Source of the DNA: Pohlia nutans
Taxonomy: Eukaryota; Streptophyta; Bryopsida; Bryales; Mniaceae
Assembly: GCA_022496805.1 (NCBI GenBank)
Contig: CM040103.1
Coordinates: 4,234,001-4,298,000 of the forward strand
Direction: 5' to 3'
Length of the DNA stretch: 64,000 nt
Shown here: one piece after another, positions 15,309-62,624 of the stretch
How positions within the stretch are numbered: the first letter of the stretch is position 1
Layout of the letters: every line of letters starts with the position of its first letter
The notes under the pieces: model-generated
The model's input: the letters and a program-made list of their open reading frames with translations, nothing else
Databases searched by the model: none
Told to the model about the DNA's origin: nothing
Program-made: the position numbers and the translations under genes

Positions 15309-16376
15309 TTAACCCTTTAGTGCTCAAGCGACCACATTGTGGTCTCTCCTTTGTCGAAAACGCAAGTAACGGAAAATTTGTGAAGAATTGGATTTTGAAT
15401 TGTGAAGTTCAGACGATGATGGGTATAATATACATCTTCTAGAAATAGAAATTTTCAATTTGGAGTTGTGCAACTATCAAAATACCTATGAACAAAACGC
15501 GAAACGCAAAAATACTCTAAATACTTGAAAATACAGTAAATACCTCGGGGAGGTCACTCTTTGTATCATTTGAGTATCACGTGTGAACAAAGGGTATTTA
15601 AAAGCACCCTAAAATTTAAAAATAATTTTTACTATAATTAGTAATATTTAAAGAATATTCTCATTTTTATTCTTGTAATGAATTGTGAACATCCTATATT
15701 AATGTAAATCATTTATAAAAATTATCTTCAAAGATTTATTTGGACCCTATCTTTGTTCGCACGTTGTTACGTAATATTTGGAAGTGACCTCCCCGGGGTA
15801 AATACTTACAAATACAACACATGTATTATGCAGTATTTTTTGTGTTTGGAAGTTTGTTATCTTATTTTATTCACATTCTCTTGTTCATGTCCCATTAGTG
15901 TATGTACTCCGATCTTGATCCATGTACTAAGTCTTTTCATATTTTAACGTATAAAGTTTAATTTGTCCTAAACTGTACATGAAAAGTTACTCTCAGTTAT
16001 AAAATTCACAATAATTATGTGTGAGTCCGTTCTTAACATGAAAGATTTCAATGGAGAGGTGTTGACATAGATCATTGTTGAACATCTTTAACTTCATTTT
16101 AGAAAATTTTATCCAAATTCTATTTAACTTTGAAGTCACACACCCTCATTTTCGAGTGTACATTACACGGTTTGAAGACATACTATGATCTTCCAATTCC
16201 ACCATTGGATGATTCTCTAATTTTGGCAAAATGTTTGCACTTTAGTTGGAAATTTAATTGACATACGGTTACTTTCTAATTTAATACATTTTATTTTTGA
16301 AAATATTAATCATAGTGGAAAAACCCAATGATAACCAGTGAACCTTGCTACAATAACCAAAGTGTTAAAGGGTTAA
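15309..16376. mobile_element. TTAA-bounded element, 1068 bp
   Basis: Begins TTAACCCTTTAGTGCTC and ends GTGTTAAAGGGTTAA. The perfect hairpin GACCACATTGTGGTC lies at 15330-15344, 17 nt inside the left TTAA. An inner segment (15545-15800) is bounded by GGGGAGGTCACT and AGTGACCTCCCC, so another inverted-repeat insertion is nested within; a related segment is at 21955-22935. No coding sequence. Confidence 0.7.
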
Positions 16377-16603
16377 TCCCTAAAGGACCAAGAAGCCAAA
16401 ATTTGGCCTCGTGTTTTTTTTATGGCAGTTTTGAATAGGTCCTACGTAGACTTTCTTTTATCCAAATCCATTTGTCTTTTGATCAACACATGCAATGTCC
16501 GTCAATGATTCTAGTAATATAAAATTTGGTCCCATTTGAATTATATTTTTCACAATATGATCAATTAAATTTGTCATTTTAATTCTATGAATCCAAGGGT
16601 TAA
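16373..16603. mobile_element. Short TTAA-bounded MITE, 231 bp
   Basis: TTAATCCCTAAAGGACC to AATCCAAGGGTTAA, sharing its left TTAA with the previous element. GCCAAAATTTGGC at 16395-16407 is a perfect hairpin 18 nt inside the left end. A partial inverted copy is at 42968-43080. Confidence 0.65.
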
Positions 16604-17854
16604 CTTCCGAGGTGCTTCGAACTGGCACGGTTGAATTGCATTGCAAAATCATTGCAAATGTGGTGGAGCTGAAAATGCGCTGCAAAAACATTGCAAGAGT
16701 ACCACAAAAATCTTGGTACTTGATAGACTATTGTAGCAAAGCCATTACAAAACCTTACAAACTGTCATAATATAGAAAGCCATTGCAAATATGTGCATTA
16801 AGATTGATCAATTCACGAAGAACTCAAAGTTGAAGCATGAAGGGGTTATGATATCTCAACCTAATTGTCAATCTACTAATGATATTGAAACAAAATTTCC
16901 ATAAAATCTTGGCTTGTCAACATCTATAACGTTTCAAATTAAAGTTTTCAAAGTCACTAGAATAAGCAACAAGTGCCTATACTTGCCACTTTATTGTACC
17001 AAAAAGTTGTCACCACCTCCATGCTAAAATAATCACAAGAATTCTCTCTCCTCAACTCATTCTTTGTCCCATAGGACAAAGCTTGTGGTTTTCATTGGCT
17101 ATTCGTGAGGTGTTAAAGTTTTTCGAAGATTGGAGAAGAATCATTATTCTACTGTTTAGTATTGGCAATAATCCATTTTAAATCTTATCATTATTAAAAA
17201 CTTTATTTAACTCCCTTTATTCAACAATAAATGTTCATTTTCATGTTTGAGACCGAATGAATGCGTCATTTATCATAATTGAGAATGGAAGATCAGATAG
17301 ATAGATAGAAACTCCGGCCTTTTATCAAGGCCGACGTAAATGAAGTGTTTGTTTGTAATGTTTATGATTCAGGACAAAGGGCCATTGAAATAATGGGAGG
17401 TCACTTATGATATCTATTCCAAACATTAAAAACATTCGTATCAATTTCAATTGTTGAATCGATTGCCAAATCTTTTTAATAATAAACATATTGATGTAGA
17501 GGAATAAAATGTTACTATAGTGGTTGAATTTCTATAACTACATTTGTTAAAGAATTACATATCTATCTTATTGACATTGAACCCAAGGATTGCTCTTAAT
17601 GTTAAGACTAGAAATCACATGAGTGCATAATTTTGATCCCCCTATGTATATACTAAAAAGTCACCTAAAAATTATAAGAAATATATGAAGTTGTTAAGCA
17701 CAATCTAAAATTCTTGTTGTATAAATTTCAAAAATAATCACTTCTATATATTTCTAAATTGATTTTTGAAGCAAAAACCAACAAATTTTAGTTTAAACTT
17801 CTATCATTTATTTTATAAGATTTTACAAACATTTGGTCCTGAAATTTATACCAA

Positions 17855-17920
<66 letters not shown>

Positions 17921-19527: not shown

Positions 19528-22500
19528 TTAGAACTTGACAAAGGTTTTGTACAACCACCTATTTGTTTCGCTTTTGTTGAATACCAACCTCAACAATCTT
19601 AAAAAGAACAAACTAATGCTTATCATACATATAAGCCCACCTATTAGTGTTGGATAGAAAGAGAGACCACCATGTTTCCAAGAATACTCTTCTGATACTA
19701 TCGAGTTTGACGCAGCTGCAAAGGAAATAAGAACACCTAGTACTGACATCAAAAGAAAAGATAATGCCATCCCTACAGCTCTCCGTGCACGTTGCCATTC
19801 CGCATATATCCCTTCTTGAGGCATCGGAAGAGGTGGCGCTAGAGCAAACATAATGGATGCAATAGCAAGATAAAAAGAGAAATTATTGCTCACCATGAAG
19901 ACTCTCACAGACAAATTTGTATCTTGTCCATAACCGAGCGGTGGTTGTAGTGGACTTACAAAAGATGCCGTTGCAACTAATGCTGCAACCACTGAAATAG
20001 CATTAGCAGCATCATTGAGGCTTTTTTTGGCTTCAGATGTTTCTTGTGCAATCCTATTGTACCACCAAAGACGAGCTTCTTGGGTAGCTGCAGGTCCCGG
20101 TTCAGCAAACCTATCTTTGTCATCTTTTTCCCATATGTCAACACCAGCTTGCAACAACATAATGATGCAAGCTTGATTAACAAGGTACGATGTTGATGTA
20201 GTATGCTCTTCCATGTCTGAAGGGTCAAGCCTTTTAAGCTTGAAATCTCTATTGACGGAATCAAAATCATGATCAAAGAGGAAAACATTGACTTGACCAT
20301 TGCTTATGCGAATCGGACGTTTCTCAAAGATTTTCTCTTTATGTATCATAGAATATGGCATGCTTGCGTTGGATGCATAGTGCAAAGCTGTGGCCCCTTC
20401 AAATTTGACCAATGGATTGAACATTTGATTGTTCAAGAATAATCCTAGAGTATCAGGATTTCCTGATGCAGAAGCAAGAAGTAGGGCAGAGATCCTCCGA
20501 AAATTCTTGTGTGGGACAGCAATATCATTAGAAAATTTTCCATCATCAAAAATAGCTCGTAACTGCATCAACATGAAAAGAGCTCATCAAACAACACTTC
20601 TTGTCAGAGAGAGCAATATCATTAGAAAATTTCCCATCATCAAAAATAGCTCGTAACTGCATCAACATCAAAATAGCTCATCAAACAACACTTCTGATAG
20701 CATAATTGTTATTTTCCATTCAATTTTGAAACAAATAAGAACCTAAAGATCTAGAGCTTGAGAGCAAGACAATGAACATCAACTATATTTAATTGGCAAC
20801 AATTGTTTGCACATAACGGTGGATTTTATATAATGCAAAGATGTGTAATACCACAATATTTGATTATCATGTAAGTTGGTACATGAAACCACATAATATT
20901 TTTACTTTGTAATGAATTATTATGTATCCTTTTCAGGCTTGTAATACTTCACTTAGCTTTTTGAATTCTAATTATTTGATTTTAGATCCAAAAACTATAT
21001 TGTTTTCTAAGTACATTATCTTAAATGACCTATTACAAAAGCAAATGTAAAATCGTAATTTACGTACAATAATTCATAGTATACAGTTGACTATTTGGAA
21101 AAAAAAACAAACTAATTAAATCATTCAACCTCTCAACTTTGAATATTTTTATACCTTAACTAAGAAGAAAAACATTGAAGTAATAGAATTTAAGTTGTTT
21201 ATTTTATAACTACCCATGCCATTGAAAAATAATATTAAGGTCAATAATCTTCAAGCCTAAATTCGAACCAAATCCAATCTACCTTTGTTGTGACTATTTC
21301 AACACCACTCTCAAAAATTTGATTTGCTTTGGTGAAAACATTGAATGTCAATATGTTTGAATTCACTATGTATTAGAGAAGCCTAGCAATATCAATATGT
21401 AATAGATACTCTTTTAACTCAAACATGGAAACTTTATTAGTGAAGTTTTTGAAATTACTTCATTCATAAGGAATGAACTTAATTAAAAATTATCACTTTG
21501 TTATAGTGGACATTGCATAGCTTTACCACTCTTCATTGGAATTAAAAATCAAAACCAGCAAATGTCAAATTGTTAACAAGTTTTAAACGATTATGTCATC
21601 CATCTGATGCTTTAAAGTTCTGTACAGACTTAAGAACTAAAGTAGGTAGATTTTTATTTACATACATTTGGTTACAGTTATGAATGTGTATTGATAAATA
21701 TTTCAAATATAGGATTCAATATTCATTATATGATCATTTAAATTCAAAATATTAGGTGAAACTTGAAATTGATTCTTAATTGGATAAACATAATAAATTT
21801 GTTAAAAAGATTAATTTGTATAATTGGAAGCATGTAATTTAGAGATTTATTTCTAAATTACATGCTTGGAATTACTCATTGAATAAAATCACTAAGCAGT
21901 TTTAGCATTTAGCAATCCCTGTTGTTCAAGTGTTGTTAATCTCTTCATATATTTTGCATATCATGTGTGAAAAAAGGGTATTTAAAAGTATCCTTAAAAG
22001 TTAAGCTAATTCTCACTATAATTAGTATATTACAAGAATATTCTCATACATATTCTTGTAATCAATTTTTAGCATCCTATATTAATGTAATTCGCCTATT
22101 AACCCTTTAAGGTGCCGATTCAACACTGTTTTCAAAGATTCGTTATAAAATGTTTGATAAAAAACTAAAATGGAGTTGATGTACAAAGCAAAGTTATAGA
22201 TATCAATGTGAAGATAACATCTATGCGGTTGGATTCATAATATTTTTTATTAATATTTTTAAATTAATTTTGCAAGGTTTTCTCTTGAAATTCAATTAAA
22301 AATCCAAAATTAACATTAAAATTTTAAAAAGTATTGTAATGAAATTGGAATAACATACAATACAAGATGGTATGGTTTTCACTATTGGGCAATGGCCTGA
22401 TATGGGTAATAGTGAGACGCGTCTCACTATGTGTGACTTATGTCTAACTCATTTTATGTGTGCTAGAATTTTCATTTTTAATACCATGTATATAGTTGCA

Positions 22501-24513
22501 GCCATGGCCCCTATAACACCATCTATTTTTTGTAATTTTTCAATGATTTTTTCTTACCAAAAAAATATTTTTAAAAAATCACACTAATTCAGGAGGGGGT
22601 ACCCATATCAGGCCATCACCCTATTTGATTCTTTTTATTATGGAAAATCATGATTAAGGTCTCACTTTTTGAACTAAGAATGAAACTTGACATAAATCAC
22701 TTTTACTATTTTTCAAAAACTCTCAATATCTTATCCTGAAGATCCGTACCGTACAAATAGTAATCAACTAGCACAAGAATTTTTTTTTAAATGAATGGAT
22801 GAAAAACATCCCCGTGCGTGGTGAAAGGGCGCATCCTGAAATCATCCATCGTCCAGATTCTGGACGCAGGCGCGTCCAAAGGTTAAAATTATCTTTTGGA
22901 CCCTATATTTTTTGCACGCCATTTGTAATTTTTTAGAAGTGAACTCCCCAAGGCTAATCTAACCAAAATAATCCAAGAATAGTTTGAAGAATTGAAAAAG
23001 GCATGCTAATCAATGTAATCGGGCAATCTCTAAGGTGTCCATCATTCAGAAATGTAAACTCCAAAGCACTAAGTAATTAATTGATTATACCAAATCATTG
23101 TAGTCAAACTATCAAAGTACAATGCACTCATTCACAATTTCTTCATGAATATTAATAGACACGTACCGACTTTGACTCCAGTAATATTCTCACTATATTC
23201 GATAAACCCATGATGGCAGCTTGTTGCAGAGGTGACCAGTAGATATGAGTTTCTTTGAGCCTTCTGTAACCGCACTCGATGTCTCTTTTAAAGAGGGCAT
23301 TTACATCCGTGCGAGAGTAGTTGAGAAGAAGTTCTACAATCTTTTCATGATCGTGTAAGATAGCCAAATGTAAAGCCGTCTTGCCCCACGAGAGCCTCTC
23401 TTCTGTGCCAAAAAGAATACAGGCTAGCCTGTCTTCTATCTCATATCCAGTCACGTATTCTGATGTTCGAGTATTCACATCCACTCGCTCGTCCTTCAAA
23501 AGTACTTCCAAAGAGTCATGGTTACCAGTGGCAGCAGCATGGTGCAAGGTGGTCCAACCTTTTGCATCCGCTGCATTGAAACAGTCTTTATAAGCATCGT
23601 CATTTTCCGGAAATAGACTCATTATCGTTTTCAATTTTCCCGAATGATTACCAATAAGATGGAGTGGGGTTTGCCCTTTCATATTTTGAAGTTGGAATAG
23701 ATAAGTCAAGACTTCTGCAGATCGGGGCTTACCCAAATTTAAGCATTTCGTTATAACATCCACCACATACTTCATGTTGTCAGAGAAGACAATCGCTGAA
23801 GCATAGTGAAACCGCAGCTCTTCACGTTCATCTTCAAATTTATTCAGCACCTGTTCTTCGATGGCTTTGAAAGCTTCCTTGGTAGACTCCTCTTGCATTA
23901 TTTTTAATACTTCATTCCTTAAATGCTCATTTTCATCGGAACTACTAGTTTGCATTGGATTTTTGGTGTAAGAGTTGCGATTACAGATCATATAGTAGAG
24001 TATACGACTAGTATGCAAAGCATAGTCCGCCGCTCGTGCCTCGTGTTCACCGTGCTTTGCATCAACGAGCTCCCGCCAAGTGATGTTGATCCCAGACAGC
24101 TCGTCCACAAATTTATCCATGTGCTTGAATAAATCGTACACATGCTCTTGAAGTTTATAGCATCCACCTATTGCTGCCGCATGCAACACAGTCAACCCTT
24201 CATAGCCCGTTTGCACCACTAGACAAGGATCTGCTTGCAATTGCTCCAGGAGGGCCTTGCAGTTCCCGCACCGTAAATTGCGACACCACTCTGACTCCAT
24301 GTCAAATCCCTGATAGTAAATTGCGGTAGCCATTCTCAATCCACTTCGGATGCCTTCAACCGGAAGCTGAGGTTCCTTCATCTTACAAGCTGTAAGAGCC
24401 ACTAGCTGTAGCAACAAGTCTTGAATATTCTTTTCATTATATCCGCCTTCTGAGTGGCTTGAAATTTCAGAAGGTCCTTCTTGGACATCAACTCCCGAAG
24501 TTGCCCCATCCAT
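19528..24513 (-). CDS. Ankyrin-repeat protein with C-terminal PGG-type membrane domain, two exons
   Basis: Exon 1 is 24513-23167 (449 codons) and exon 2 is 20562-19528 (344 codons and stop), joined by GT (23166-23165) and AG at 20564-20563; the frame is kept (K-S|L-R-A), giving 793 aa. Exon 1 has degenerate ankyrin repeats: GYEGLTVLHAAAIGG, KGQTPLHLIGNHSG, KGWTTLHHAAATGN, GKTALHLAILHDHEKIVELL and WSPLQQAAIMGLSNIVRILL. The last repeat is completed in exon 2 and followed by EGATALHYAS. Residues about 630-661 (SLNDAANAISVVAALVATAS, FVSPLQPPLGYG) are a PGG domain in which PLGYG replaces PPGG, then three more hydrophobic helices, so four membrane segments near the C-terminus. Proteins of this build occur widely in land plants; a few act in stress and defence signalling, but the role of this one is unknown. 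The 2.6-kb intron contains a TTAA element and a duplicated acceptor. Intact and probably functional. Confidence 0.88.
20563..20700 (-). repeat. Tandem duplication of the exon 2 splice acceptor
   Basis: About 94 bp containing the end of the intron and the first 45 or so bases of exon 2 is repeated directly upstream on the minus strand. The second acceptor, also TGATGCAG|TTACGAGC, would start an exon at 20656. The 94-bp offset is not a multiple of three, so using the distal acceptor and reading through would shift the frame. Confidence 0.75.
22099..22886. mobile_element. TTAA element of the X family, inverted, in the ankyrin gene intron, 788 bp
   Basis: TTAACCCTTTAAGGTGCC at the left, GGACGCGTCC-like sequence ending CCAAAGGTTAA at the right. 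Reverse-complement relation to 33310-33854 and 61849-63523. CGTCCAG-ATT-CTGGACG at 22850-22866 is a perfect hairpin 16 nt inside the right TTAA. The flanking sequence (21955-22098 and 22887-22935) resembles 15590-15800, where only TATAAAAATTATC is found at the insertion point. Confidence 0.75.
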
Positions 24514-26262
24514 TTCATACGTATGGGCGGGAGCCAGGCCTTACTGAACACTGGACACACGCTCCAATTTGATCTCCTTGGTGATCTACACATAAAGATA
24601 TCATGTTGGAGAAATATGGAATCAAAATAAGTACATCGCTAGTCACATCGCTAATAAGTCACATCTTTACTGAGTACCCACTAGAAGATTTGGAGGACTC
24701 AACCGGGCTAATGCTTCATGTGCTAACTCCCCTTTCAACCTCGTAGCACCCGGTTCATAACTCAAGAACCTTTTTATGTGAAGTCATTAGTCCCAAAAAT
24801 GGTCCACTTGTGCTGGCTTAATTAAGTACATTAGCCCCACATAAAGTTTGAGGGATTACCACCCATTTTCAAAAGATTAGCCCCCATTGGCCCATTGACC
24901 CCGGGGCTAACACTCCATAATCTTCTTTTCAACACTCTAGTGTGCAGAACTTTGGTATGATCTTTGTTACAACAATAACTTTACAGTCAAGTGCTTAAAC
25001 CGATAGGGTGACTACGCTGATTTTTTTAAATCACAAGTGACGAAAGCTAATCAACGAGGTGCTATTCTTTGAAACAAGAAACATTTAATGGCCATTCTCA
25101 TTAAAGTGGCATATTTCAACGCACCGTAATTGTGCCAAGTGCTCAATAGTTCACAAAACTATCAAAACTACGACGAATGAGGTTCCAGATGGGTGTTCGA
25201 AGAACTGCCCTTCTCTATAAATCTCTGTAAGATAAGGAACAGAACCTAACATTTAGAACATTTCTGGATCACCATTTTGAAACCTTCTTGAAACCAAATA
25301 TCATGTTACTGTGACCGACAGATGCAGACAGAAACTAAGATGAAGTCTACTCGTATTACACATACACGAACGCACCACACATATGTACTACACCACTTCA
25401 CAGCAAGATTCAGAGACTCTGAAAGTAACACCAACGTATATCCGTATTTACAATCTGGAAAAACATTCGCATAACAACTATATCGAATATGTGATCTACT
25501 AACAAGACAAGTGTCAAGAACATCACAGGCTTCAAGAGGGGGCTGGAAGATGATTAGACTCACCGAACAAGGTGCACATGCACCACGACAAGGCTGAACT
25601 GGAAGCCTTAGTTCGGAATGTGGACGAGGCCAAGAGTGCAGGAGAACACCAACCGAGGCTTCAGGCGAAGTTGAAGATGAGAGATTTTCCGCAAGAGAGA
25701 GTAGAATGAAACAAAGTGGTCTGTGCATGTATGTGCTACACAGACAGTCCCTGTCTAACTGCAGATCTTACGTCCACAAGTGCTCGCATATCTCGATCAA
25801 ATGAGCGGTCTCTGCAGAACTAAGGACTTGTGCTACAGACTGCTACACTACAGCCCGTTCCTGGATCTGCTACCAAACTGCAATACTCAGTATGCGCGAG
25901 ATGAGACAGATAATGTGGACAGGCAGCTGGAGGGGTCCTCAAGACGAGTGAAGCTTAATTGGGATCACTTGGGACATATATGCCCTTCACAGCCTGAGAG
26001 CATCGCCAGCTCCGGGCCTGCCACCCGTAGATCTGCATCGACGGGTCTCGTCCGTCGCAGTTCTTGCTGTCAGACCAACTCGGCGATTTGACTGTCCCAC
26101 GACAGGAACGCAATAACGTAATTCATTCAATTCATTTCTGAGGCAATCGGTATTCGGTAAGTAAGGCCAAAGCTCCTTAACTTTTGACCATGATGACGGT
26201 CAGGGAAATCGGTAAGTACTGTAACGCCAAATCTCCGAATCTTCTGACCGCGATGACGGTCC
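24514..26262. other. Intergenic region upstream of the ankyrin gene
   Basis: Promoter side of the ankyrin gene; no clear TATA box chosen. The medium-length frames at 25306-25728 (minus) and 25780-26091 (plus) match no family I recognise and are not called. Two direct repeats of about 60 bp (GGTAAGTA...CGATGACGGTC) lie at 26150-26265. Confidence 0.45.
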
Positions 26263-26850
26263 TTAACCCCTTAACGTACCAGGGTGTCCCTGGAATTGAC
26301 AATTTGAGAAAAAACATTATAAACTACCATTTAGAAGAATATTCTGGAATTGATATACATATGAAAGTTCTAGATCTTGAATTTTAGATTCCATCCGTAC
26401 GGTTCGATTCACTAATACAATCACCAATATTTAATTATAAATTTTGAAAGTTAAAATTAAAAATTCCTTCTAAATTCGATTACAATCTAAATTTCAATAT
26501 TTTTTGAGTAAATTTTTTTGGAATGAGTTCGAAATGAGATACTCTTAAGTGTGGTGATACTTTGAAATTTTTGTGTTTCTTAAATTTATGACCTCATTTT
26601 TCACGATTCCACTTTGAACTAGAGTCAATGCAATTTTGGCTTGGTCAACGACTTGACATACTTCTACATTTGCAATTTTAGAAAAATATGTACTCTAGTA
26701 TGACTAAATCGAGCCATTAGATAGGACAACAACTTGGTGAAGAATCTCCAAAAAATTGGATGAGTTTCATCCAAGCGTTGATGAGAACGTGAGAAGGCTT
26801 TGAAATCATTCGTCGTCCAGTTTCTGGACGCTGTGACGTTTAGGGGTTAA
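26263..26850. mobile_element. TTAA-bounded MITE with a hairpin at each end, 588 bp
   Basis: Ends TTAACCCCTTAACGTACC and GTGACGTTTAGGGGTTAA. The hairpins CCAGGG-TGT-CCCTGG (26279-26293) and CGTCCAG-TTT-CTGGACG (26814-26830) lie 12 and 16 nt inside the two TTAA. An inverted sister copy is at 62928-63515. Confidence 0.8.
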
Positions 26851-26863
26851 GAAGCAACTATTA

Positions 26864-33309: not shown

Positions 33310-33854
33310 ATCTTTTGACGCGCCCGCGTCCAGATTCTGGACGCTAGATGATTTCTGACGCGTCCTTCACCATGCACAGTGATGTTTTTCATTCATTCAA
33401 TTTTTTTTTTAATTCTTGTATTAGTTAACTACCATTTTTCCGGTACTGATCTTCAAAATAAGATATTGAGAATTTTTGAAAAATAGCAAAAGTGGTTTAT
33501 GTCAAGTTTCATTCTTAATTCAAAAAGTGAGACCTTAAACTTGAGTTTCCATAATAAGTAGAATCAAATAGTGAAAACCATACCATCTTGTAGTGCATGT
33601 TATTCCAATTTCATTACAATATTTTTTAAAAATTTAATGTTAATTTTGGATTTTTAGCTGAATTTCAAGAGAAAACCTTGCAAAATTAATTTTAATTTAT
33701 TAATAATAAATATGATGATACCAACCGTACAAATGTTATCTTCACATTGATATTTATAACTTTGCTTTGTACATCAACTCCATTTTAATTTTTTATCAAA
33801 CATTTTATAACAAATCTTTGAAAACTGTGTTGAATCGGGACCTTAAAGGGTTAA
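33310..33854. mobile_element. X-family TTAA element without internal insertions
   Basis: Left end worn (TAATCTTTTGACGCGCC), right end GGGACCTTAAAGGGTTAA with TTAA at 33851-33854. The perfect hairpin GCGTCCAG-ATT-CTGGACGC is at 33326-33344. It shows the uninterrupted sequence (GAGACCTTAAACTTGAG near 33530) at the place where the copy at 61849-63523 carries a further element. Confidence 0.7.
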
Positions 33855-37529: not shown

Positions 37530-38105
37530 TTAACCCCTAAACGTCCTCACCCTTTTCAGATTTAGCAGTTTTTCAAAAATGCATTATAAAATGCAACTAA
37601 GAGGGGTATTTTCAATTTGATGAATGAATAAAAGTTGTACATTATGCATTTTAGATTCTATCCATACGGTTAGATTTGCGATTGCTATCACCAGTATTTG
37701 TGTATAAATTTTAAAACTTAAGATTTAAAGCTCTTTTGTAATATGATTACGAATAAGATATTGACAATCTAATATTGAATTTTTTTGAGATGGGTTGAAA
37801 TGCGATACTCTAAGTGTAGTGATTTTTGGAGATTTTTTGGTTGCTTATTTCTAGTACTTGACTTTTTTCAAGAGCACTTTCAGACTAAAATCTTTCAAAT
37901 TTGGGGTGGAACACTACAACATGAAATGAGGCATAAAAATTTCACAAATCATCCCCTTTCTAATCGGATCACACATGCATGAAGCTAACTTCCCATAAAA
38001 GTTTGGTAAAAATTTCACACTGCAAAAAGTGCATGATCAATGAGAAATCCGAGTCCAAATTTGTACACCATCCAAAATATGGATGGTTGGGCGGTTAGGG
38101 GTTAA
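37530..38105. mobile_element. TTAA-bounded MITE, 576 bp, with empty site in copy A
   Basis: TTAA at 37530-37533 and 38102-38105 flank CCCCTAAACGTCC...GGGCGGTTAGGGG. Copy A reads CCTCACATTTAAGGGAT at about 10929 with one TTAA and no insert. The hairpin CCATCC-AAAATAT-GGATGG is at 38068-38086, 15 nt inside the right TTAA. Confidence 0.88.
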
Positions 38106-38282: not shown

Positions 38283-39208
38283 TTAACCCCTAAAGGACGA
38301 GGTGGACACATTGTGTCCTCGAATAATTTCATTACTTTAATAACTTGTTTGGATTTCATAATTTTGACTCAATGTTAACTAGAGAATTGAAAATGTTTGT
38401 TACAAGAACACAAAAATCCTTTAAGATTTGCAAATATGTTGATTGATTCATTGGGAAAAAACTAAAACGTCAACGTAGGTAAACTTGGGACATAGTAGTT
38501 AGGGCGGTTGATGACTTGGAGGGCGTTTTCACACTTGGATGTCACATTCGTAAAAACAAAAAGTGTATAGTATGTAAAATATTTTCCATTACTGCATCAT
38601 TAACAATATATAATAATTACGGAAAATGTTTAAATATATTTAGAATGGAATCTTTTCAAAATAACTAGAATCTTTTCTATATATTTTATATTATTTTTGG
38701 AATATTTTGGAATATTCCAAATATATATTTGAATTTTCTAAAACATTTTTGCAATGTAAAAGTAAATAACGATCACAAACACCGGCTCAACAAGTCACCA
38801 ACAAGTCACCTCATCCAAACATAAATCTTTGAGAATCAATCATTGTTGTTGTATTTAGTTTTAGAACACCATTTTTAGTGAGCACCTAGATATAGTACAT
38901 CGTTGTATGCTCTTAAACTTTCAAACGCTAATCATGGTTTTTAAATTTATGAGAAAGCTCGCAATGAATGACTTGTTGGTTTTGTTCAAATTTTTTATAA
39001 ATCAACCTATGATCAAACCTTATAATCATGTAATATATATGGTAGATTTTTCTAAAAGTTGATGTACAATCTCATGACTAAGTTCTCTTTGAGTTTCAAC
39101 GGTGAAGTTTTTTACATGAATACCAATTAAGAGATACAATTGCTTTTTTGAAAGCATCACAAAAAAGTGATAAAATTTTAGGAATGAGCATGGACCTTTA
39201 GGGGTTAA
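38283..39208. mobile_element. TTAA-bounded element, 926 bp, absent from copy A
   Basis: TTAACCCCTAAAGGACGAGG to GGACCTTTAGGGGTTAA. The perfect hairpin GGACACATTGTGTCC is at 38304-38318, 17 nt inside. Copy A at about 11120 has TTGA and no insert. No coding sequence. Confidence 0.82.
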
Positions 39209-43095: not shown

Positions 43096-43337
43096 TTAAC
43101 CCTTAAACGACAATGCCAGCCCCATGGGCTTGGTTTTGTTTTGGGAGAATCTTGTTCATAACTTCTACTCCATTGCACCAAATGGGGTTTTTAAAATGCC
43201 AAACGGAGCATCTTAGAGAGATCTATACTTCTTTAGAATAGAGCCAAAGTCAATTAAAAACAGAATCATGCTTTAAATGGAATTTGAAAGAGATTTTGGG
43301 TGTGGTATTAGGATAGTACATGTCGTTTAAGGGTTAA
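43096..43337. mobile_element. TTAA MITE with perfect 13-bp inverted ends, 242 bp
   Basis: TTAA at 43096-43099 and 43334-43337 flank CCCTTAAACGACA and its exact inverse. The hairpin AGCCC-CAT-GGGCT is at 43118-43130, 18 nt inside. The best-preserved small member of the group. The right TTAA is shared with a further left end (CCCATTAACCGTCC). Confidence 0.85.
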
Positions 43338-50107: not shown

Positions 50108-53100
50108 ATGTCTATTTTAAAAAAGAATATACCTTCTTCATTTGAAGAAATACTATTGTCATATAATCTTCGTTTGAATTCAAGATATCATTATGTTGTC
50201 GGTGATTGCTTATTTGATTCTGTGTCTTATTTAATGAAATACTCCATCTCATCAATTTCATTGAGACAAAACAGCATGAATTATTTAAAATATTGTTTAC
50301 TATTAAATACACCTAAAGCACAACGATGTCGACTTTATGAATTGAATCCTTCATTTTTACATGATTTACATGATGGAACAGTTCTAAATGAACATGAATA
50401 TGTTGAAAAGATGTCATTAAGTGCAACAATGGGAGGACTATGGGGAGACTTTACAGCTACCTTTTGGATAGCAGAATATTTACAAAGGCCAATTCATGTA
50501 TGGAACAAACAATCAAAACGAATAATGCAAAAATGTGGAACCGATTATATTAGTGATCCTTTACATTTAGCATTTAGTTCAAGCAAAAGTGCATCAAGTG
50601 GTCATTTTGAACCCATAGATTATATAGAAGATTTGCCTGTAGTGCAATCTCAATCATCACAAGCAACTAAAGAAATAAATGTACAAGAGCTTGATACTTT
50701 TCAATCCTCATCACCAACTTTAACCAAAGAATTAGAAACGCATTCATACAATTCTCAAAAAACAATCAATTTACAATTTAACATGAATTGTCCTTGGACA
50801 GAGGAGAATGATTCAATATTAATGCACATTTTACAAAATAAAGACAAATTATCGATACAAGATATTGCTTCAATATTTAATGATTCTTGTCAAACAAACA
50901 TTAGTACCACTCAATTACAAAGTCATATCCAAGTGCTTCAAAAAAGAAAATTACAACATGTAACAGATACTTCATTTCAAAATAATAGTTGTACATCCAA
51001 AACATTTGTTGAAGTGATACCAAAAATTGAAAATGTGTTTAAAACAATTAAAGAGAAAGATACAATTATAAATGATGTAGATTTGAAAAGTAAAAAACAA
51101 AAAATCATTCACAATGTCAACTTTCAAAATAACATAAACCGTTCTTCAAATTCTAAAGATATAGCAAGGCTTACAAAACAATATGTTGAAATTCTTTTGA
51201 TTTCTAAATGCAACATACCATGCCCTATAACACCTCCCACAACACCTTCGATAACATCTACTAATATTTCTAAAAAAAACAATCATTTACCAATAACCAA
51301 AAAATTTCGCTTTAATGAAGGATACGATGCTATTTTAACTCAAATTCTAATTGATAATTCTAAATTACCACTTCTAAATATTTTAGCGTTATTTAATACT
51401 TCTTCTAATACAAACATTACTTTATTTCAATTAGAAAAACACATTAAATATTTAAGAAATAAGAAAGAGAAAAGGAGTTTTTTTAATTGGACACCATATG
51501 AAAACACGATTACTCAAATTTTACATTCTCACTTTAGTTCGACTATAACAGAAAAAATGGAATTGTTTATGAATCATTTTCCCAACATTGATAGAACAAA
51601 ATTTGAAATCCTCATTCATATTAGTGATTGTGAGGAAAAAATGTCAAAACTTACAAATGAAGTAATTAGAGATGAAACCACTAATGAACAAATCATACAA
51701 ACACATGAAAGTTGTAATGAACATAATGATTTTCAATCAATTTATATTGATAGTTTTAAAGAAAGTATAGTTGATGTCCCAATAACACCATGTATTAGTT
51801 GTGAAAGATTATTTTTTTTCAAGCAACTCAAACACCTAACAAAAAGATTACAAAATAAACTTTCCAATCATTTCAATATTGAAGAGAACAACGACATTAA
51901 ATTGTATGTATGTTTAAATTGTTTGGATAGTTTTAATAAAAATAAGGAGCCTATGCATCGAGTACCAAATTCTATTTCAAGAAACAAAATCATTCCATCA
52001 GTGCAAAAATTGACACAATTAGAAGAACGTCTCATCTCTCCCCGCCTAGCTTTTGCTCAAATTTACAAGATTCATGGGTATGGTCAATACAAAATGCATG
52101 GTAGCATAATCAATGTTCCTGCAGATGTTAATGAAACGCAATCAATTTTACCACGTTTGCCCCACGATGACTCTACTATAGGCGTATTTTTAAAGCGACG
52201 TCTTGAATATAAATCTCCATACATGTCAGGAAATGTCCGTCCAAATTTTGTGATGTTTGCACTAAATGATTTATTGAAAACTCCACTATATGAAAATTTA
52301 AATGTGACCATCCGTCAAGATTGGAAGGGATTGTTTAATATGCACATACAATCACAAACTCAAAATATTGAAACTTCAAATATATTAACAACATCAGATA
52401 GTTCAGATTCGGATGACGATGAAGAAATAAAAAATATTCAAACAGATACAATGATACATAATTTTTTGGATGCTTTCAAAATATCTGATTATGAGAACAC
52501 AGTATATTCTGTAGCTCCTAGTCAAAATCATCATCCACTAGGATTATTCAAAGATAAAAATTCAGAAGAATTAAATTTTCCAACTTTATTTTATGGCCAT
52601 CCTCGTACTTCAAATATGTACAAAAATTTAACATATCAACAAATATCAAAATGGGAATTACTACACAAATCTAATGATTTTTCAACAAATATTCCAAATT
52701 TATTTTTTAAAGCAGCCAAAATTTGCATTCAAAAAGTCAGGCAATCTGCATCAATAAGAATTCGGAAGGGGAAATTAATTGGTAGGACATTAAAGGCTTC
52801 TCAAGTTAGAGACCAACCAAATTTAGATAAAATTTTAAAATCACACATAGGCTATTGTGACTTACAAGCTCTACGTACTTCTCCTGATTATTTGGAAGGA
52901 TTGAGAAAAAACCTATTTGCAATGATCAGGCAACTTGGACCTCCTACATTTTTTGTAACACTAACATCAGCTGAAAAGTTATGGGAACCTTTGATTAAAG
53001 CATTACATTCATTACATTTTAAGCGATTAAATCTTTCAGAAAATTTTGAAGAACTTCAACCTACTCATATAGCACAATTAATTCGAACAGATCCTGTAAC

Positions 53101-56100
53101 ATGTGCAAGATATTATGATCATAGAACATCAAATTTTCGCAAATTAATAATGAAAGATTCAAGATTTTTTGGAAAGCTTTTGGACTTCTTCTTTGTTACT
53201 GAATTCCAAAATCGTGGAAGTGAACACGATCATGGACTTATATGGATAAAAGATGCTCCCATATACAATGTAAATTCGAATGAAGAAATAGAAGCTTTTA
53301 TAGATAGATATGTTTCTTCGGAAAAGTCTATACTACCGATTAAATTACAGAGTGCTCAAGAACATCAACATAGTAGGACTTGTAAGAAAAAAAACAATGT
53401 CGTTTGCAGATTTCATTACCCATTGCCCGCCATGCATGCAACAAAAATTTTGGAACCCTTAACACCAAATGAGGAGTTATCTTTCTCTGCAAATAATTTT
53501 AAAAAACAAGCAACCAAGATTTTTCAAAATTTAAAAACTTTGAATACAGATATTGACATTACATTTGAACAATTTTTAGAATCATTGGAAATGAATGAAG
53601 AAATGTATATATTAACTTTAAGAAGTCAACTCACTAAGCCACACATATTTTTGAGAAGAAAACCAATGGATATCAAAACTAATGCATTCAATGTGCATAC
53701 AGCTCGTACATGGTTTGCAAATACTGATATACAATTTGTGCTAGATCCATATGTAGCTGCAAATTATTGCACATCGTATATGACAAAAATTGATAAAACT
53801 ATAAGCAAAGAATTACACAAAATAATTCAGAATTGTATCACAGAAAAAACAGAAGCAAACATTAGAATTATAAAATTAGGAAATGCATTTCTTAATTCAC
53901 AACAAATGTCCGCACAATTAGCTTCATATTTGGTTCTTTCTATACCCTTACATCATGCATCTCGATCATTTAAGTTTATTAATACTTCACCATTAGATGA
54001 AAGAGCATTTGTTTTAAAGCCGCAAAATGTTTTAAATAAGTTGGAAGCAGATTCAACAGACATCCTATGTTCTTCAATCATTGATAAATATTTAGATCGA
54101 CCTAAAAATCTTGATTCATTATCATTGTCAGAATTTGCATCTTCTTACAATATAAGGAATAAACGACTTGTACAATGCAAAAGTCCACAAATCATTCGAT
54201 ATGTAAACTTCAATAAACATAAAGATGTTGAAAATTGGTCAAGAGAACAACTTCTTCTATACTCACCTTTCAAGAATTCAGAGTCTTCTCTACTTGGATC
54301 ATATGATACATGGCTAGATGCATATAAAATAAAGGAACATGAAATATCTAAAATACGTTCTACATTTCAATACAAACTACCAAACAGTAAAATGGCCGAG
54401 GAAGTTGATTGGACCAATTTAGATGATAAAACATCAAATCCTTCTAATCTATGGAATGATGATATTAACAACTATCCAAATTCAGATTTTGGAGCTATTC
54501 CTATTACAAATACTTTACATGTTGAAAAATACGATCTTAAAAATGACTTTATAATCCATGCAAAAAATGGAACATGTAAAAAACCACAAGAAAAAGATCA
54601 TGAAAATTTTACAACATCTACCTATCCTATGATGATGGAAGAGTCTGAATATCGCTTCCTTTTGAGAAAATTAAATGATGAACAAAGATTGATTTTTGAT
54701 GATGTTGTGCATAGGAAAAGATTATTTCCAAACGAACCAATACATTTATTTTTAACTGGAGATGCAGGAACAGGAAAGACTTTCACATTAAAACTCATTA
54801 TTCAAGGTTTATTACGTTTATACAATAAAGATTTATCAATAGATTTGGAGAAAACAAAAGTTCTCATAATGGCATTCACTGGTAAAGCTGCATTCAATGT
54901 GGATGGAATGACCATACACTCTGCTCTAAATATTCCTATAAATCAATCACTAACCAATTTATCCAATCTTGCTTCAGATACCTTAAATAGGCTTACAAAT
55001 AAATATGAGCAATTGCAACTTGTTGTAATAGATGAAATTTCTCTTGTTGGAGCAAGGATGTTCAATGCAGTAGATCAAAGGTTACGTTCAATAAAGCATA
55101 TTCAACATAAGTATTTTGGTAATGTAGATCTTATAATGACAGGAGATTTTTATCAAGCACCTCCAGTGAAAGATGCTTGGATTTTTGACAACATACGTGA
55201 AGGTGTCAATAGTTTAGCTCCAAATTTTTGGCACACGCATGTTAAATGTTATCAACTCAAAAAGGTTATGCGCCAGTCAGATTTAAGGTTTATTGAAGCA
55301 CTAAATAAATTTCGAACATCCACTCAAACTTTGGCAGACATTCATTTCATTAACAAGGAATGTTTTCGAAACCCACCAAAAAGCCTTACTATTCCATATT
55401 TATTTTACACAAACAAACACGTAACAAAACATAATGAAATTGTATTCAATGAAACAATTGGCCCAACATTCACTTTTCAAGCAACAGATATCCCTAATTC
55501 TTCGTGCCCACCAAATTTTAAGCTTCCTAATGATCCAAGCAAAACAGCTGGGTTGTATTCAATAATTCGTTTAAAAAAAGATATGTTAATAGAACTATGT
55601 GCTGGAAATTATAATGTTTCGGATGGTCTTGTGAATGGAGCTGATGGATTATTTAAAGGATCAACTACCTATTCCAACAAATCAATAATGTGGATTTATT
55701 TTTCTAATTCAAGGGTTGGAGCACTAACTAGAGAGAAGTTTTCCCACTTTTATACAATTGAGATAGAAAAAGAATGGACACCAATTGAACCATTAGTAAA
55801 AGAAATAAGATCGGGAAAAACTCAAACATATGTCGTAACAAGAATTCAATTTCCTGTTCAACTTGCTGCAGCTAGGACTATACATCGTTCACAAGGATTA
55901 ACATTAGATGAATTGGCATTTGATCCCACCAATGTTACAAAGCATGGATTAACATACACAGCTTTATCACGTATACGTACAACAGAAAAATTATACTTAT
56001 TGGCACCGCTTCAAAGTTCAAATTTTCAGGTAGACGAACGTGTTAAATCAGAAATGCTTAGATTAACAACCACAGCAGGGTGGCAGCCAATGGTTCCAAA

Positions 56101-56821
56101 TTTAAAAAAGAATCAACATTCTCATGTAATCATACAAGCCCTCAACACAAACTCTTTGCGTCAGCATTTTCAAGATATTTCTAGTGACTATAGCCTTCAA
56201 AGTTCCAACATTTTATGCCTCATAGAAACTAGGCTACGTTCTTCATCAAATGAAATACAAAAATTCATTGACACGTCAAAATACAATCATTTATCAGCAT
56301 ATGATGGCCATGGCTTGTTAATGTTATATGATAAATATATGACATTGAATTCTTCTGAAATAACCACAGTTGATGGATCTGAGTACATCACAGCCACATT
56401 TAATTCAAAAACACGAAATGCAATTCATGTCATATCTCTTTATAAAGCTCACAATTGTTCAATGTCGACATTTTTAAAAACTCTTCAAAATCTAATTCAA
56501 AAATCTCCTCTACATTGTCCCACTATCATCTTGGGAGATTTCAACATTGACATCCTTGACTGCAATGATATTACTCAAAATAAAACAAAGTTAGTAGAAT
56601 TTATGAGACATTTCAACTTACAATCACAATTTAGTGCAAGTACCACTAAAGGAGGGACTCAATTAGACCACATATGGGCAAATATACCTGGGAATGATTG
56701 TAACGCTGGAGTATCCGAAGCATATTGGCCAGATTATCATAAACCAATTTATATTGCATTTAAATTACCAAATTTTCTTCCAATATTCAAAAGCCAACTA
56801 GTATATTCCTCATTTCTATAA
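50108..56821 (+). CDS. Helentron Rep/helicase with OTU and endonuclease domains
   Basis: Uninterrupted 2237-aa frame; the ATG at 50108 is the first in frame. Domains in order: OTU-type cysteine protease (GDCLFDS with Cys34; GHFEP with His166); two Myb/SANT-like stretches (about 230-280 and 400-450); a CxxC pair region (about 560-620); Rep-type HUH nuclease (FVTLTSAEKLW, EHDHG with His1040 and His1042, NYCTSYMTK with Tyr1220 and Tyr1224); SF1B PIF1-like helicase (Walker A GDAGTGKT 1551-1558, VVIDEIS with Asp1642-Glu1643, GDFYQAPP, later ARTIHRSQGLTL and YTALSRI); and a C-terminal exonuclease-endonuclease-phosphatase domain (IETRL with Glu2040, GDFNID with Asp2144, QLDHIW with Asp2187-His2188). 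The C-terminal endonuclease marks the Helentron branch of Helitrons. The HUH domain nicks and joins DNA and the helicase unwinds it during rolling-circle-like transposition. All key residues are present, so activity is plausible. Confidence 0.95.
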   Translation: MSILKKNIPSSFEEILLSYNLRLNSRYHYVVGDCLFDSVSYLMKYSISSISLRQNSMNYLKYCLLLNTPKAQRCRLYELNPSFLHDLHDGTVLNEHEYVEKMSLSATMGGLWGDFTATFWIAEYLQRPIHVWNKQSKRIMQKCGTDYISDPLHLAFSSSKSASSGHFEPIDYIEDLPVVQSQSSQATKEINVQELDTFQSSSPTLTKELETHSYNSQKTINLQFNMNCPWTEENDSILMHILQNKDKLSIQDIASIFNDSCQTNISTTQLQSHIQVLQKRKLQHVTDTSFQNNSCTSKTFVEVIPKIENVFKTIKEKDTIINDVDLKSKKQKIIHNVNFQNNINRSSNSKDIARLTKQYVEILLISKCNIPCPITPPTTPSITSTNISKKNNHLPITKKFRFNEGYDAILTQILIDNSKLPLLNILALFNTSSNTNITLFQLEKHIKYLRNKKEKRSFFNWTPYENTITQILHSHFSSTITEKMELFMNHFPNIDRTKFEILIHISDCEEKMSKLTNEVIRDETTNEQIIQTHESCNEHNDFQSIYIDSFKESIVDVPITPCISCERLFFFKQLKHLTKRLQNKLSNHFNIEENNDIKLYVCLNCLDSFNKNKEPMHRVPNSISRNKIIPSVQKLTQLEERLISPRLAFAQIYKIHGYGQYKMHGSIINVPADVNETQSILPRLPHDDSTIGVFLKRRLEYKSPYMSGNVRPNFVMFALNDLLKTPLYENLNVTIRQDWKGLFNMHIQSQTQNIETSNILTTSDSSDSDDDEEIKNIQTDTMIHNFLDAFKISDYENTVYSVAPSQNHHPLGLFKDKNSEELNFPTLFYGHPRTSNMYKNLTYQQISKWELLHKSNDFSTNIPNLFFKAAKICIQKVRQSASIRIRKGKLIGRTLKASQVRDQPNLDKILKSHIGYCDLQALRTSPDYLEGLRKNLFAMIRQLGPPTFFVTLTSAEKLWEPLIKALHSLHFKRLNLSENFEELQPTHIAQLIRTDPVTCARYYDHRTSNFRKLIMKDSRFFGKLLDFFFVTEFQNRGSEHDHGLIWIKDAPIYNVNSNEEIEAFIDRYVSSEKSILPIKLQSAQEHQHSRTCKKKNNVVCRFHYPLPAMHATKILEPLTPNEELSFSANNFKKQATKIFQNLKTLNTDIDITFEQFLESLEMNEEMYILTLRSQLTKPHIFLRRKPMDIKTNAFNVHTARTWFANTDIQFVLDPYVAANYCTSYMTKIDKTISKELHKIIQNCITEKTEANIRIIKLGNAFLNSQQMSAQLASYLVLSIPLHHASRSFKFINTSPLDERAFVLKPQNVLNKLEADSTDILCSSIIDKYLDRPKNLDSLSLSEFASSYNIRNKRLVQCKSPQIIRYVNFNKHKDVENWSREQLLLYSPFKNSESSLLGSYDTWLDAYKIKEHEISKIRSTFQYKLPNSKMAEEVDWTNLDDKTSNPSNLWNDDINNYPNSDFGAIPITNTLHVEKYDLKNDFIIHAKNGTCKKPQEKDHENFTTSTYPMMMEESEYRFLLRKLNDEQRLIFDDVVHRKRLFPNEPIHLFLTGDAGTGKTFTLKLIIQGLLRLYNKDLSIDLEKTKVLIMAFTGKAAFNVDGMTIHSALNIPINQSLTNLSNLASDTLNRLTNKYEQLQLVVIDEISLVGARMFNAVDQRLRSIKHIQHKYFGNVDLIMTGDFYQAPPVKDAWIFDNIREGVNSLAPNFWHTHVKCYQLKKVMRQSDLRFIEALNKFRTSTQTLADIHFINKECFRNPPKSLTIPYLFYTNKHVTKHNEIVFNETIGPTFTFQATDIPNSSCPPNFKLPNDPSKTAGLYSIIRLKKDMLIELCAGNYNVSDGLVNGADGLFKGSTTYSNKSIMWIYFSNSRVGALTREKFSHFYTIEIEKEWTPIEPLVKEIRSGKTQTYVVTRIQFPVQLAAARTIHRSQGLTLDELAFDPTNVTKHGLTYTALSRIRTTEKLYLLAPLQSSNFQVDERVKSEMLRLTTTAGWQPMVPNLKKNQHSHVIIQALNTNSLRQHFQDISSDYSLQSSNILCLIETRLRSSSNEIQKFIDTSKYNHLSAYDGHGLLMLYDKYMTLNSSEITTVDGSEYITATFNSKTRNAIHVISLYKAHNCSMSTFLKTLQNLIQKSPLHCPTIILGDFNIDILDCNDITQNKTKLVEFMRHFNLQSQFSASTTKGGTQLDHIWANIPGNDCNAGVSEAYWPDYHKPIYIAFKLPNFLPIFKSQLVYSSFL

Positions 56822-59225: not shown

Positions 59226-59720
59226 TGAATTTGAATTTTTCATAAGCAATACCTATCATGGAAACATATCTCCAAAAACTTATCTCTTGTTGATTTTCTC
59301 ATAAGCAATACCTATCATGGAAACATATCTCCAAAAACTTATCTCTTGTTGATTTTCTCATAAGCAATACCTATCATGAAAAACGTATTTTAAAAACTTA
59401 TCTCTAGTTGAATTTTTCATAAGCAATACCCATCATGCAAACATATCTCTAAAAACTTATCTCTGGTTTTCATAAGCAATACCCATCATGCAAACATATC
59501 TCCAAAAACTTATCTCTGGTTGGTTAGATTCCTCATAAGCAATACCCATCATGAAAAACATATTTTCAAAACTTATCTCTAGTTGATTAAATTTCTCATA
59601 AGCAATACCCATCATAGCAAATGTACCTTCAAAACTTATCTCTAGGCTATTTTGAAGTATTTGATTAAATTTTTGTAGTATTTCACAAAGACTTTAAAAA
59701 AAAAAAGATAAATATTTTTA
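59226..59720. repeat. Right-hand satellite array, direct repeat of the left one
   Basis: Seven units of the AAGCAATACCCATCATG family followed by GGCTATTTTGAAGTATTTGA and an AAAAGATAAATATTTTTAAA tail. The last two units and the tail match 46290-46430 almost exactly. Confidence 0.9.
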
Positions 59721-60380: not shown

Positions 60381-60694
60381 AACTAACTAACTAACTGTGA
60401 CGTCAAAATCCTTCCTAGAATTTGATCAAAAAACATTAAAAAATATGGCATGCTAACCAAAGCTGCTAAAACAAGTGCATATTGATTAACTCATTAATTC
60501 ATAACGGTCAAACGTAAAGCCCATGACCACGGAATGAAGTTGCACCTGTCACGCTCAATTTTGCCACTGTAAATAAGACAAACATTCAAATTCATATTTT
60601 TAGTAGATGAAGCGATGCGTCTACTATAGTAGATGGTATGGAATATTCTACACCCAACACTACTTCATCGGTAGCTAAGTGGACAAGTGGAGGG

Positions 60695-61272
60695 TTAACT
60701 CCTAAACGCCTGAATGACCAATTTTGGCTGATCAGTTTTTGCTGCAGCTGAAATGCGATTTCGGCCATTGAAATGATATTTTTTGAATTTGAGCTCAACT
60801 AACAAAATGTAGCTTACGAAGTCTAGTTTCCACTCCATTTTGAAATTTTGAAAAATTCCTAAAATTGAATGATTTATAGCAATTACAAGTTCAGGGTCTA
60901 TTACCGTGGCACCTCCACAGTGTTCCACGGTTTTAGGTTTTTCCACTGTATTTTTAAATTTTAAAATATTTTTTGAGCACGGTAAACAAAATAATGTTTT
61001 TCTTTGTAATTTACACATTTGGCAAGTTTTTTGTATTTTTAAAATATATTTTATAATTGATGTGAATTTTCTTTGCTTTTACCACTTTGAAAAATCATGA
61101 TAATTTGAATTTTGCATTAATAATTTTGAAAAAATCATATATTGTAGTTGACATTTGGTTTCATGCAGGAAAAATATGAAATTTAATTTTTTGTTCAATA
61201 ATAATGGTGAAAGATAGCATCCAGTCTAAAGTTCTTCCACCACAGTAATAGGGTCAGGCATTTAAGGGTTAA
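60695..61272. mobile_element. TTAA-bounded MITE, 578 bp, with empty site in copy A
   Basis: TTAACTCCTAAACGCCTG to GGCATTTAAGGGTTAA. Copy A at about 12711-12720 reads GGAGGGTTAAGGTGATG with one TTAA. CCAATTTTGG lies near the left end. Related in its interior to the 9363 element. Confidence 0.85.
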
Positions 61273-62074
61273 GGTGATGGGCAAAGTGCATGAAAGAAAG
61301 GCGGTTGGCATGAAGGCTGTTGAATGTTATGTACACTTGTTCATGGAGTACAAACGTATCTGGAACTACGTGGCTAGCATTCGATCATCTCTGGAACTGC
61401 CCAGCCGCTTGTCCTTGTGCGAAATGCTCACTATGATTGCGCCCAACAATCGCCTCGTTGGTGGAGGTTACTCCCTCTACAAGAGACCCCCTGTCTTCTG
61501 GCATGGGATGCTCGCAATCCTCTGGCATACTTGATGCACTAGAAACTGATTTATTTTTCAACAAGAACCCTTCAACGTACTTTGAATATGCCCTCTTGTT
61601 TGGAGGGATTTCATTCATATTGGGATGGCGCGTAGGAACACAGCCCCTCAACTATTTTCACAAATGTGGAGAGAAAAAGCAAGTGACTTTGGTAAAGGCA
61701 TTCTCGGCTACTTGGTGTATCAATGAGAGTTTTTGCACTGATAATATTTTCTTAGAGAGATGAAAACTTGCTCCAACTCTGCTCCCATGCCGCTCCTTAT
61801 TGGGGACCACGACTGATTGTTCTTTTCCTTCTTCATTTTCCTGTCATTTTAACCCTTTGACGTGCCAGCGTGTAGATTCTGGACGCTGGATGAATTCTGA
61901 CGTGTCCCTTGACCACCCACGGTGATGTTTTTCATCCATTCATTTTCTTTTTAATTCTTGTACTAGCTGACTACCATTTGTACGGTAGATTTTCAAAATA
62001 AGATATTGAGAATTTTTGAAAAATAGCAAAAGTGGTTTATGTCAAGTTTCATTCTTAGTTCAAAAAGTGAGACC

Positions 62075-62624
62075 TTAACCCCTAAGCTCCCAAGCGACCA
62101 TTTTCTGGTCGCTGCCCGGAAAAAACGGGCTGCCCGGAACAAAAAAATCTTTTTTTGAAAAAATAAAAAATATTTTAAAATACTAAATCAAGTCTACTTT
62201 CCAACCCAATTTGAATTATGGCAATCCGAGTTCAACTCCACCCGGGAGAATTTTTCAAAGTAGATCACCTCAACATTGTCTTAGTGTTACAAAATTTGCT
62301 ATTTGGGGAAAGTAATGATGATTCCTCCATAATTTCTCTTGCTTTTTTGAATTTTACGATAGATAGCCCAACTTTAACCAATCGTACTAAATTTTGAACT
62401 CTAAAATTGAAAATTATAATTTATACAAATTTTCGAAGGTTAATGCTTTTAAATTCATTAAAAAATGATCTAAAGATTATTTTGGAAATTTGACCGTATG
62501 GATAATTTGTAAAGATGATACTCTACATTTTGTCTATTGAACCAACCTTCATCAAACATATGGAAGGCACATATTATAACACATCTATGTTTTGTCCAAT
62601 ACCCCTCGGGCTTTTAGGGGTTAA
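62075..62624. mobile_element. Nested TTAA element W, 550 bp
   Basis: TTAACCCCTAAGCTCCC to CTTTTAGGGGTTAA, inserted in GAGACC|TTAA|ACATG. The perfect hairpin GCGACCA-TTTTC-TGGTCGC is at 62094-62112, 15 nt inside. Inverted sister at 27809-28356. Confidence 0.85.

Follow-up and report, generated by a model that had tools for sequence, protein, structure and literature searches.

Many short elements bounded by TTAA in the genome of the plant Pohlia nutans (Bryopsida) carry a palindrome inside one end, and the sequence of this palindrome differs from one element to another. What keeps different palindromes at the same place? We addressed this question in a stretch of 64,000 nucleotides (nt) of assembly GCA_022496805.1 (contig CM040103.1, positions 4,234,001 to 4,298,000; G000:C19:4234001-4298000), referred to here as the window. 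A preliminary description of the window had listed 11 palindromes and proposed that either a folded structure or a dimeric protein reading a family-specific word is under selection. All 11 palindromes were found at the positions given for them. By analogy with known relatives, the palindrome is very probably the left-end binding site for a dimer of the C-terminal zinc-binding domain (CRD) of a piggyBac-type transposase, with an axis fixed by the transposase core and a word specific to the family.

Nine of the 11 palindromes share a dyad axis, which lies at base pair (bp) 25 after TTAA. Those at 15330, 16395, 22850, 26814, 38068, 38304, 43118, and 62094 each form 6-7 of 8 pairs around this axis, and the one at 33326 forms 8/8 when counted from a TTAA that has decayed to CTAA. 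The observation was thus confirmed with two exceptions, at 9380 and 26279, which were rejected as parts of the pattern because they are not on the bp-25 register. The register was measured on 79 distinct ends in 51 clusters; the family left ends from the second and third batches of flank reading described below are not in these statistics. Dyad complementarity was maximal at bp 25.0 (0.392 vs 0.262 expected from column composition; z 5.9), and the next centre reached z 2.7. One random end was drawn per cluster, and the right halves were exchanged between clusters at axis bp 25. The observed count was 159/408 complementary pairs vs 107.4 +/- 8.6 after exchange, and 0/5000 swaps reached it; therefore, the words are not the same and the two halves have changed in concert. 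Window clusters alone gave 87/200 vs 51.5 (0/5000). The pair counts were distributed in two humps, with 37 clusters at 0-3/8, none at 4, and 14 at 5-7.

The frequency of perfect arms starting at bp 10-22 was also determined. Arms of at least 6 bp were present in 8/28 window end clusters vs a shuffle mean of 0.95, and 0/300 shuffles reached 8. The internal control, taken from about bases 50-100 of these ends, gave 3/28. The preliminary description had taken equal frequency in shuffled or internal sequence as a point against itself. Palindromes were indeed rarer in shuffled sequence, and rarer in internal sequence at this arm length, but the window and the internal control were not cleanly separated for longer arms (4 vs 2 at 7 bp or more, 1 vs 2 at 8 bp or more), and the excess did not extend to clusters outside the window, as described below. 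The register test is stronger than the perfect-arm count.

To which transposons do these ends belong? In a scan of the 697.8-Mb assembly (332 contigs), 116 of 1305 first-look candidates gave scored matches to PF13843 (piggyBac transposase), many with long open frames; the match of L008 to PF13843 (DDE_Tnp_1_7) had E 9e-82. The transposases carry D231, D317, and D434, which we take to be the catalytic residues (DDD triad). D231 and D317 were nearly invariant and D434 was invariant in A1, and they lie in TIDE, DN, and GVD stretches aligning with PDB 6x67. Among 16 aligned CRDs, C30, C33, C43, C46, C56, and H61 were invariant. The longest open frames of L018, L022, L024, and L027 lacked a CRD, as did three broken copies (L001, L004, L029). 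The ends open with TTAA-CCCCTAAA-type sequence. TTAA was present at both boundaries in 12 autonomous elements, which is partly by construction since ends were sought at TTAA; the terminal inverted repeat starts with CC, with CCCCTAAACG-type tips at both ends, again partly by construction since this tip pattern was used in the search. Copies of three families were 98-99% identical over about 4 kb, and this suggests recent movement, as judged from sequence identity. The short window elements have ends in common with particular transposase families (Q, O, E, and the I/E/N lineage). These results indicate that the elements are piggyBac-superfamily transposons and short derivatives without a transposase gene. 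A new element group was rejected, since transposases, ends, and register all match piggyBac and piggyBat.

Where a flank held several candidate ends, one was chosen. For families M and G the choice was made by tip match; for family I, a left end resembling that of G (3 pairs) was preferred to a better tip match (1 pair) and to a 5-pair end; for family Q, the end at 676 (6 pairs) was used, not that at 364 (3 pairs), for its likeness to window element 62075. The left ends of H, J, K, and L were not found in the flanks read. Among elements with only an upstream piece, a right-type end was obtained from 3/11 in one batch (L060, L062, L068), 5/10 in a second, and 11/20 in a third, which repeats L068; the uncertain end of L128 was not used.

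We compared the two ends of the 12 autonomous elements with an end found on each side, the ends being picked by position, orientation, and tip; family Q is outside this count. The transposase-upstream (left) ends had 48/96 complementary pairs vs 16/96 at the downstream (right) ends (exact sign-flip p 0.001, a value that overstates independence because the elements are partly related). At least 5/8 pairs at the axis were present in 4/12 left ends and 0/12 right ends. In the window, 10 elements had both ends paired, and 5/8 pairs or more were present at one end in eight, at both in none, and at neither in two; this pattern is not decisive alone, as the chance of no double is about 0.09. The pairing 62075-63515, which would have been the eleventh, was discarded as spurious, and element 22099-22886 is outside this set. 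The dyad is a left-end feature, and the idea of a palindrome at every end was rejected because of the bias in autonomous elements. The register test over 51 clusters and the left-end pair counts agree with the earlier claim that the position is constant while the sequence differs.

The words were compared across 15 families, a strong dyad being defined as at least 6/8 pairs at axis 25. Families E and P have CCGTCCA/TGGACGA and GCGTCCA/TGGACGA, family N has CCATGCA/TGCATGA, and family O has CCAGCCC/GGGCTGG, with 8/8 pairs in three further O copies. Family Q has CGACCA/TGGTCG, family R has GGACACT/AGTGTCC, and family D has an interrupted dyad. Some words of window elements, e.g., GCCAAA (16395) and GACCACA (15330), were absent from the compared families. 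Covariation was followed in a lineage of 13 left ends, leaving out window ends 26850, 61849, and 62928 (same cluster) and the near-identical L062, L085, and L089. Two-sided pair changes were found at three positions, e.g., at bp 20/30 from G-C to C-G. The lineage scored 0.200 for covariation vs 0.127 shuffled (4/500), and pairing was 63.5% at the true register vs 11.5-51.0% at all slid registers. What is new here is the presence of several palindrome words on one axis within one plant genome.

Besides the relatedness of the 12 autonomous elements, several results weigh against this reading. Of the two exceptions, CCAGGG-TGT-CCCTGG (26279) is centred at bp 20, and CCATGG...CCATGG (9380) has 1/8 pairs at bp 25. 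Held-out clusters, which are absent from the window, gave alone 73/208 pairs vs 56.7 (44/5000), which is only moderate support, and among them centre 62.0 (z 2.65) slightly outranks 25.0 (z 2.48). Perfect arms of at least 6 bp were not in excess in the 22 clusters found only outside the window (2/22 vs 0.70; 52/300 shuffles; internal control 2/22). Strong dyads were present in only 7/15 families and 2-4 pairs were counted in A, B, B2, C, F, G, I, and S, so marked symmetry is not a universal property. For Q, which is among the seven, one of two candidate ends was chosen as described above. In the 13-end lineage, pairs with two-sided change were no more numerous than the shuffled mean (3 vs 3.0). 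Finally, the CRD model leaves two features unexplained, namely the 5/8 and 7/8 pairs at the two ends of element 22099-22886 and the extra bp-20 palindrome on the other end of the 26263 family.

The elements and ends of the window are as follows; the number of bases matching the nearest autonomous left end is given where one was recorded.

38283..39208 (+): non-autonomous piggyBac-type element; dyad GTGGACACATTGTGTCCTC (bp 16-34) at 38302-38320, 7/8 pairs at axis bp 25, other end 3/8.
15309..16376 (+): non-autonomous piggyBac-type element; dyad GCGACCACATTGTGGTCTC at 15328-15346, 7/8 pairs at axis 25, other end 2/8.
16373..16410 (+): end TTAATCCCTAAAGGACCAA, adjoining the 15309-16376 element; dyad GAAGCCAAAATTTGGCCTC at 16392-16410, 7/8 pairs at axis 25.
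62075..62624 (+): non-autonomous element; dyad GCGACCATTTTCTGGTCGC at 62094-62112, 7/8 pairs, other end 3/8; nearest left end that of family Q (transposase at G000:C6:4363620), 40/52 bases.
43096..43337 (+): non-autonomous element; dyad GCCAGCCCCATGGGCTTGG at 43115-43133, 6/8 pairs, other end 1/8; nearest left end that of family O, 34/52 bases.
26263..26850 (-): non-autonomous element; dyad GCGTCCAGAAACTGGACGA at 26813-26831, 7/8 pairs at axis 25; best axis of the other end 20.0, 7 pairs.
22099..22886 (-): non-autonomous element; dyad GCGTCCAGAATCTGGACGA at 22849-22867, 7/8 pairs, other end 5/8.
33326..33854 (+): decayed copy of the 22099 family (TTAA to CTAA); dyad GCGTCCAGATTCTGGACGC at 33326-33344, 8/8 pairs; inverted repeats I3, I9.
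37530..38105 (-): non-autonomous element of the N/E/I lineage; dyad CCATCCATATTTTGGATGG at 38068-38086, 7/8 pairs, other end 2/8; best match of the 38105 end 41/52 bases.
13486..14062 (-): non-autonomous element of the N/E/I lineage; dyad CCATGCATATTTTGCATGA at 14025-14043, 6/8 pairs, other end 3/8; 14062 end with 39-42/52 bases in common with the I, E, and N left ends (best 42).
4111..5033 (-): non-autonomous element, absent from the earlier list; dyad GCGACCATATTCTGATCGT at 4996-5014, 5/8 pairs, other end 0/8; nearest left end that of Q, 33/52 bases.
62928..63515 (+): copy, in inverted orientation, of the element at 26263-26850 (inverted repeat I1, 92% complementary); 5/8 pairs in a partly decayed dyad, GCGTCCAGAAACTGGATCA at 62947-62965.
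61849..61886 (+): end with a partly decayed dyad, GCGTGTAGATTCTGGACGC at 61868-61886, 6/8 pairs.
9363..10115 (-): family-A-like element; family-A-left-like end at 10115 (GAGACCAAAAAAATGGC, imperfect dyad); ends scoring 3/8 and 1/8.

The family E left end has 36/52 and 38/52 bases in common with the ends at 26850 and 62928, respectively. No close source family was found among the left ends read for 38283 and 16373 (best 25/52 and 29/52), and no partner end was identified for 16373..16410. The CCATGG palindrome of 9380 lies at the opposite end from the family-A-like left end and is not conserved, as the sister copy at 35984-36729 has one CCATGG arm, not two.

Some ends carry further signals. In the 26263 family, the end opposite the bp-25 dyad has the different palindrome CCAGGG-TGT-CCCTGG, centred at bp 20 (window 26263-26282), which is preserved in L044:1291 and L060:2779 and has one change at window 63515 (-). 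The second end of the 22099-22886 family has 5/8 pairs at bp 25 (ATTCAACACTGTTTTCAAA) in both copies, 22099-22886 and 33854 (-), contrary to the one-end rule. The right ends of E, G, I, N, and C (L034:1994, L038:786, L039:1495, L041:204, L035:1059) all have CCTC at bp 12-15, the next base being A or G, and the other end of 37530-38105 has CCTC at bp 12-15, as several autonomous right ends do. CCTC is possibly a separate right-end signal.

How do these ends compare with those of known piggyBac-type systems? The CRD dimer of Trichoplusia ni piggyBac (PDB 6x67/6x68) sits on bp 17-33, the palindromic part of the 19-bp internal repeat, and the minor groove narrows around bp 25 (PMC7351741). The TTAA target is the same, and this left-end axis at about bp 25 agrees with the register found here. 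The piggyBac CRD differs in published fold from that of piggyBat, whereas the CRDs here appear piggyBat-like, and piggyBac has its repeat at both ends, with another placement at the right one (PMC7351741). According to published work, piggyBat of Myotis lucifugus (PDB 9c0f) has a CRD of different fold and an unrelated imperfect palindrome on the left end and not the right (PMC11707139). The Pohlia elements resemble it in their piggyBac-type core and, as predicted here from sequence and a model, in a CRD with a similar zinc-ligand pattern and a C1-like fold (PMC11707139, PMC13405395). The piggyBat palindrome (bp 19-30) likewise corresponds to the left-end dyad here with axis 25.0. Compared with that of piggyBat, the palindromes here have other words, several per genome, and arms that are often more perfect. 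Subterminal or inner inverted repeats are described in PMC12324416 as common to invertebrate and human piggyBac-like elements; the human MER75, MER85, and Looper are likewise short elements with inner inverted repeats near their ends, but theirs are said to be at both ends, MER75B excepted, whereas those here are mainly at one end. The preliminary description knew of no described element group with this feature. This view does not hold, since palindromic internal repeats bound by CRD dimers were already described for piggyBac and piggyBat, and palindromic CRD-dimer sites at piggyBac-type ends are already known.

By analogy with the piggyBac and piggyBat structures, two CRDs of the transposase dimer would close around the palindrome, bending the left end, as the core keeps hold of the tip, and the site may have a role in complex assembly. 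The CRD dimer would be held at a fixed distance from the tip-gripping catalytic core, which would explain why the dyad axis lies 25 bp from TTAA. The half-site words would differ between families because each CRD has its own specificity. The interpretation in the preliminary description is thus partly supported: its dimeric protein matches the published mechanism of these relatives and is the probable reader of the word, whereas a folded hairpin is not needed.

The preliminary description had also suggested that the palindrome is a subfamily-specific address. This proposal is compatible with the left-end CRD-dimer site and goes further, in that CRD specificity and palindrome would have co-diverged and each transposase would move only its own family. 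Several words on a single axis in one genome are consistent with it, and so is the engineering of piggyBat, in which CRDs exchanged along with their palindromes gave an obligate heterodimer (PMC13405395). Families P (L071/L072) and E (L053/L008) have identical arms and TRT in the CRD loop, despite differences at 33% of CRD positions and 23% of core positions, whereas the related families N and C have TLT. However, the Mantel test over 15 families (M omitted, as no CRD was read for it) showed that arm distance correlates more with the core (0.605) than with the CRD (0.513), and once the core was controlled, arm distance did not track CRD distance (partial r -0.14, p 0.86). Control stretches followed the CRD more closely than the arms did (tip 0.632; bp 35-52 0.713). 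A one-residue code, linking R in the CRD loop to CGTCC arms, agrees with E and P, but family S, with a TTLT loop yet arms close to those of G and I, speaks against it in a simple form. On balance, the address proposal is attractive but somewhat short of probable.

Could the palindrome be a folded single-strand hairpin or cruciform, read by its shape instead of as a word in duplex DNA? Extrusion is conceivable for arms of 6-8 bp with short loops, and such structures are discussed for piggyBac-like elements in PMC12324416. However, the axis is constant and the loop is not, and the arms in 15330 and 38304 reach within 1 nt of the axis, so a folded hairpin is not needed. The 20 unpaired cells in 14 palindromic clusters comprised 1 G-T and 6 A-C (G-T on the other strand), numbers too small to decide. 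In the structures of relatives, the site is bound as a duplex, as reported in PMC7351741 and PMC11707139. A folded structure is thus highly improbable. The same low standing applies to shared ancestry only, in which a single ancestral palindrome drifts and its symmetry persists without selection. Flanking words such as TGTACAG are common to the ends of one lineage, and short elements decay freely, as in 62928 vs 26850, but half-sites were not exchangeable between clusters in the swap test. Chance palindromes picked out by a pattern-seeking reader would account for the two off-register palindromes and the lack of a perfect-arm excess outside the window, but are hardly credible in view of the shuffle and swap controls over window ends and the left-end bias.

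The window holds other features as well. A Helitron-type open frame of 2251 amino acids at 50066-56821 (+) has OTU, DUF6570, Helitron_like_N, and PIF1 domains, with an endonuclease/phosphatase match below the cut-off. Gene parts at 19528-20583 and 23152-24540 (-) encode a PGG domain and ankyrin repeats; among the best 120 of 135 matches to the PGG-domain part, the named relatives are Sphagnum species and the liverwort Calypogeia fissa, in line with a probable bryophyte host. A tandem array of a 15-bp unit lies at 49645-50019, with 17 overlapping 135-nt copies at a spacing of 15, and related repeats occur at two places, 45683-46304 and 59237-59579, spaced mostly 53-59 bp apart.

The probable left-end CRD-dimer site thus extends the end architecture of piggyBac and piggyBat, known structurally from insect and bat elements, to a plant genome in which such elements have radiated widely and in part recently, the axis being at the same base pair. 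We suggest tentatively, and with slightly less assurance than for the address itself, that these elements form a natural panel of piggyBac transposases whose CRDs may have split into several palindrome specificities that exclude one another, all on a rigid bp-25 scaffold, the palindrome serving as a family address that would allow coexistence without cross-mobilisation. Many CRD-palindrome pairs in one genome provide a ready panel for how a CRD reads its site, and for orthogonality in genome-engineering tools.

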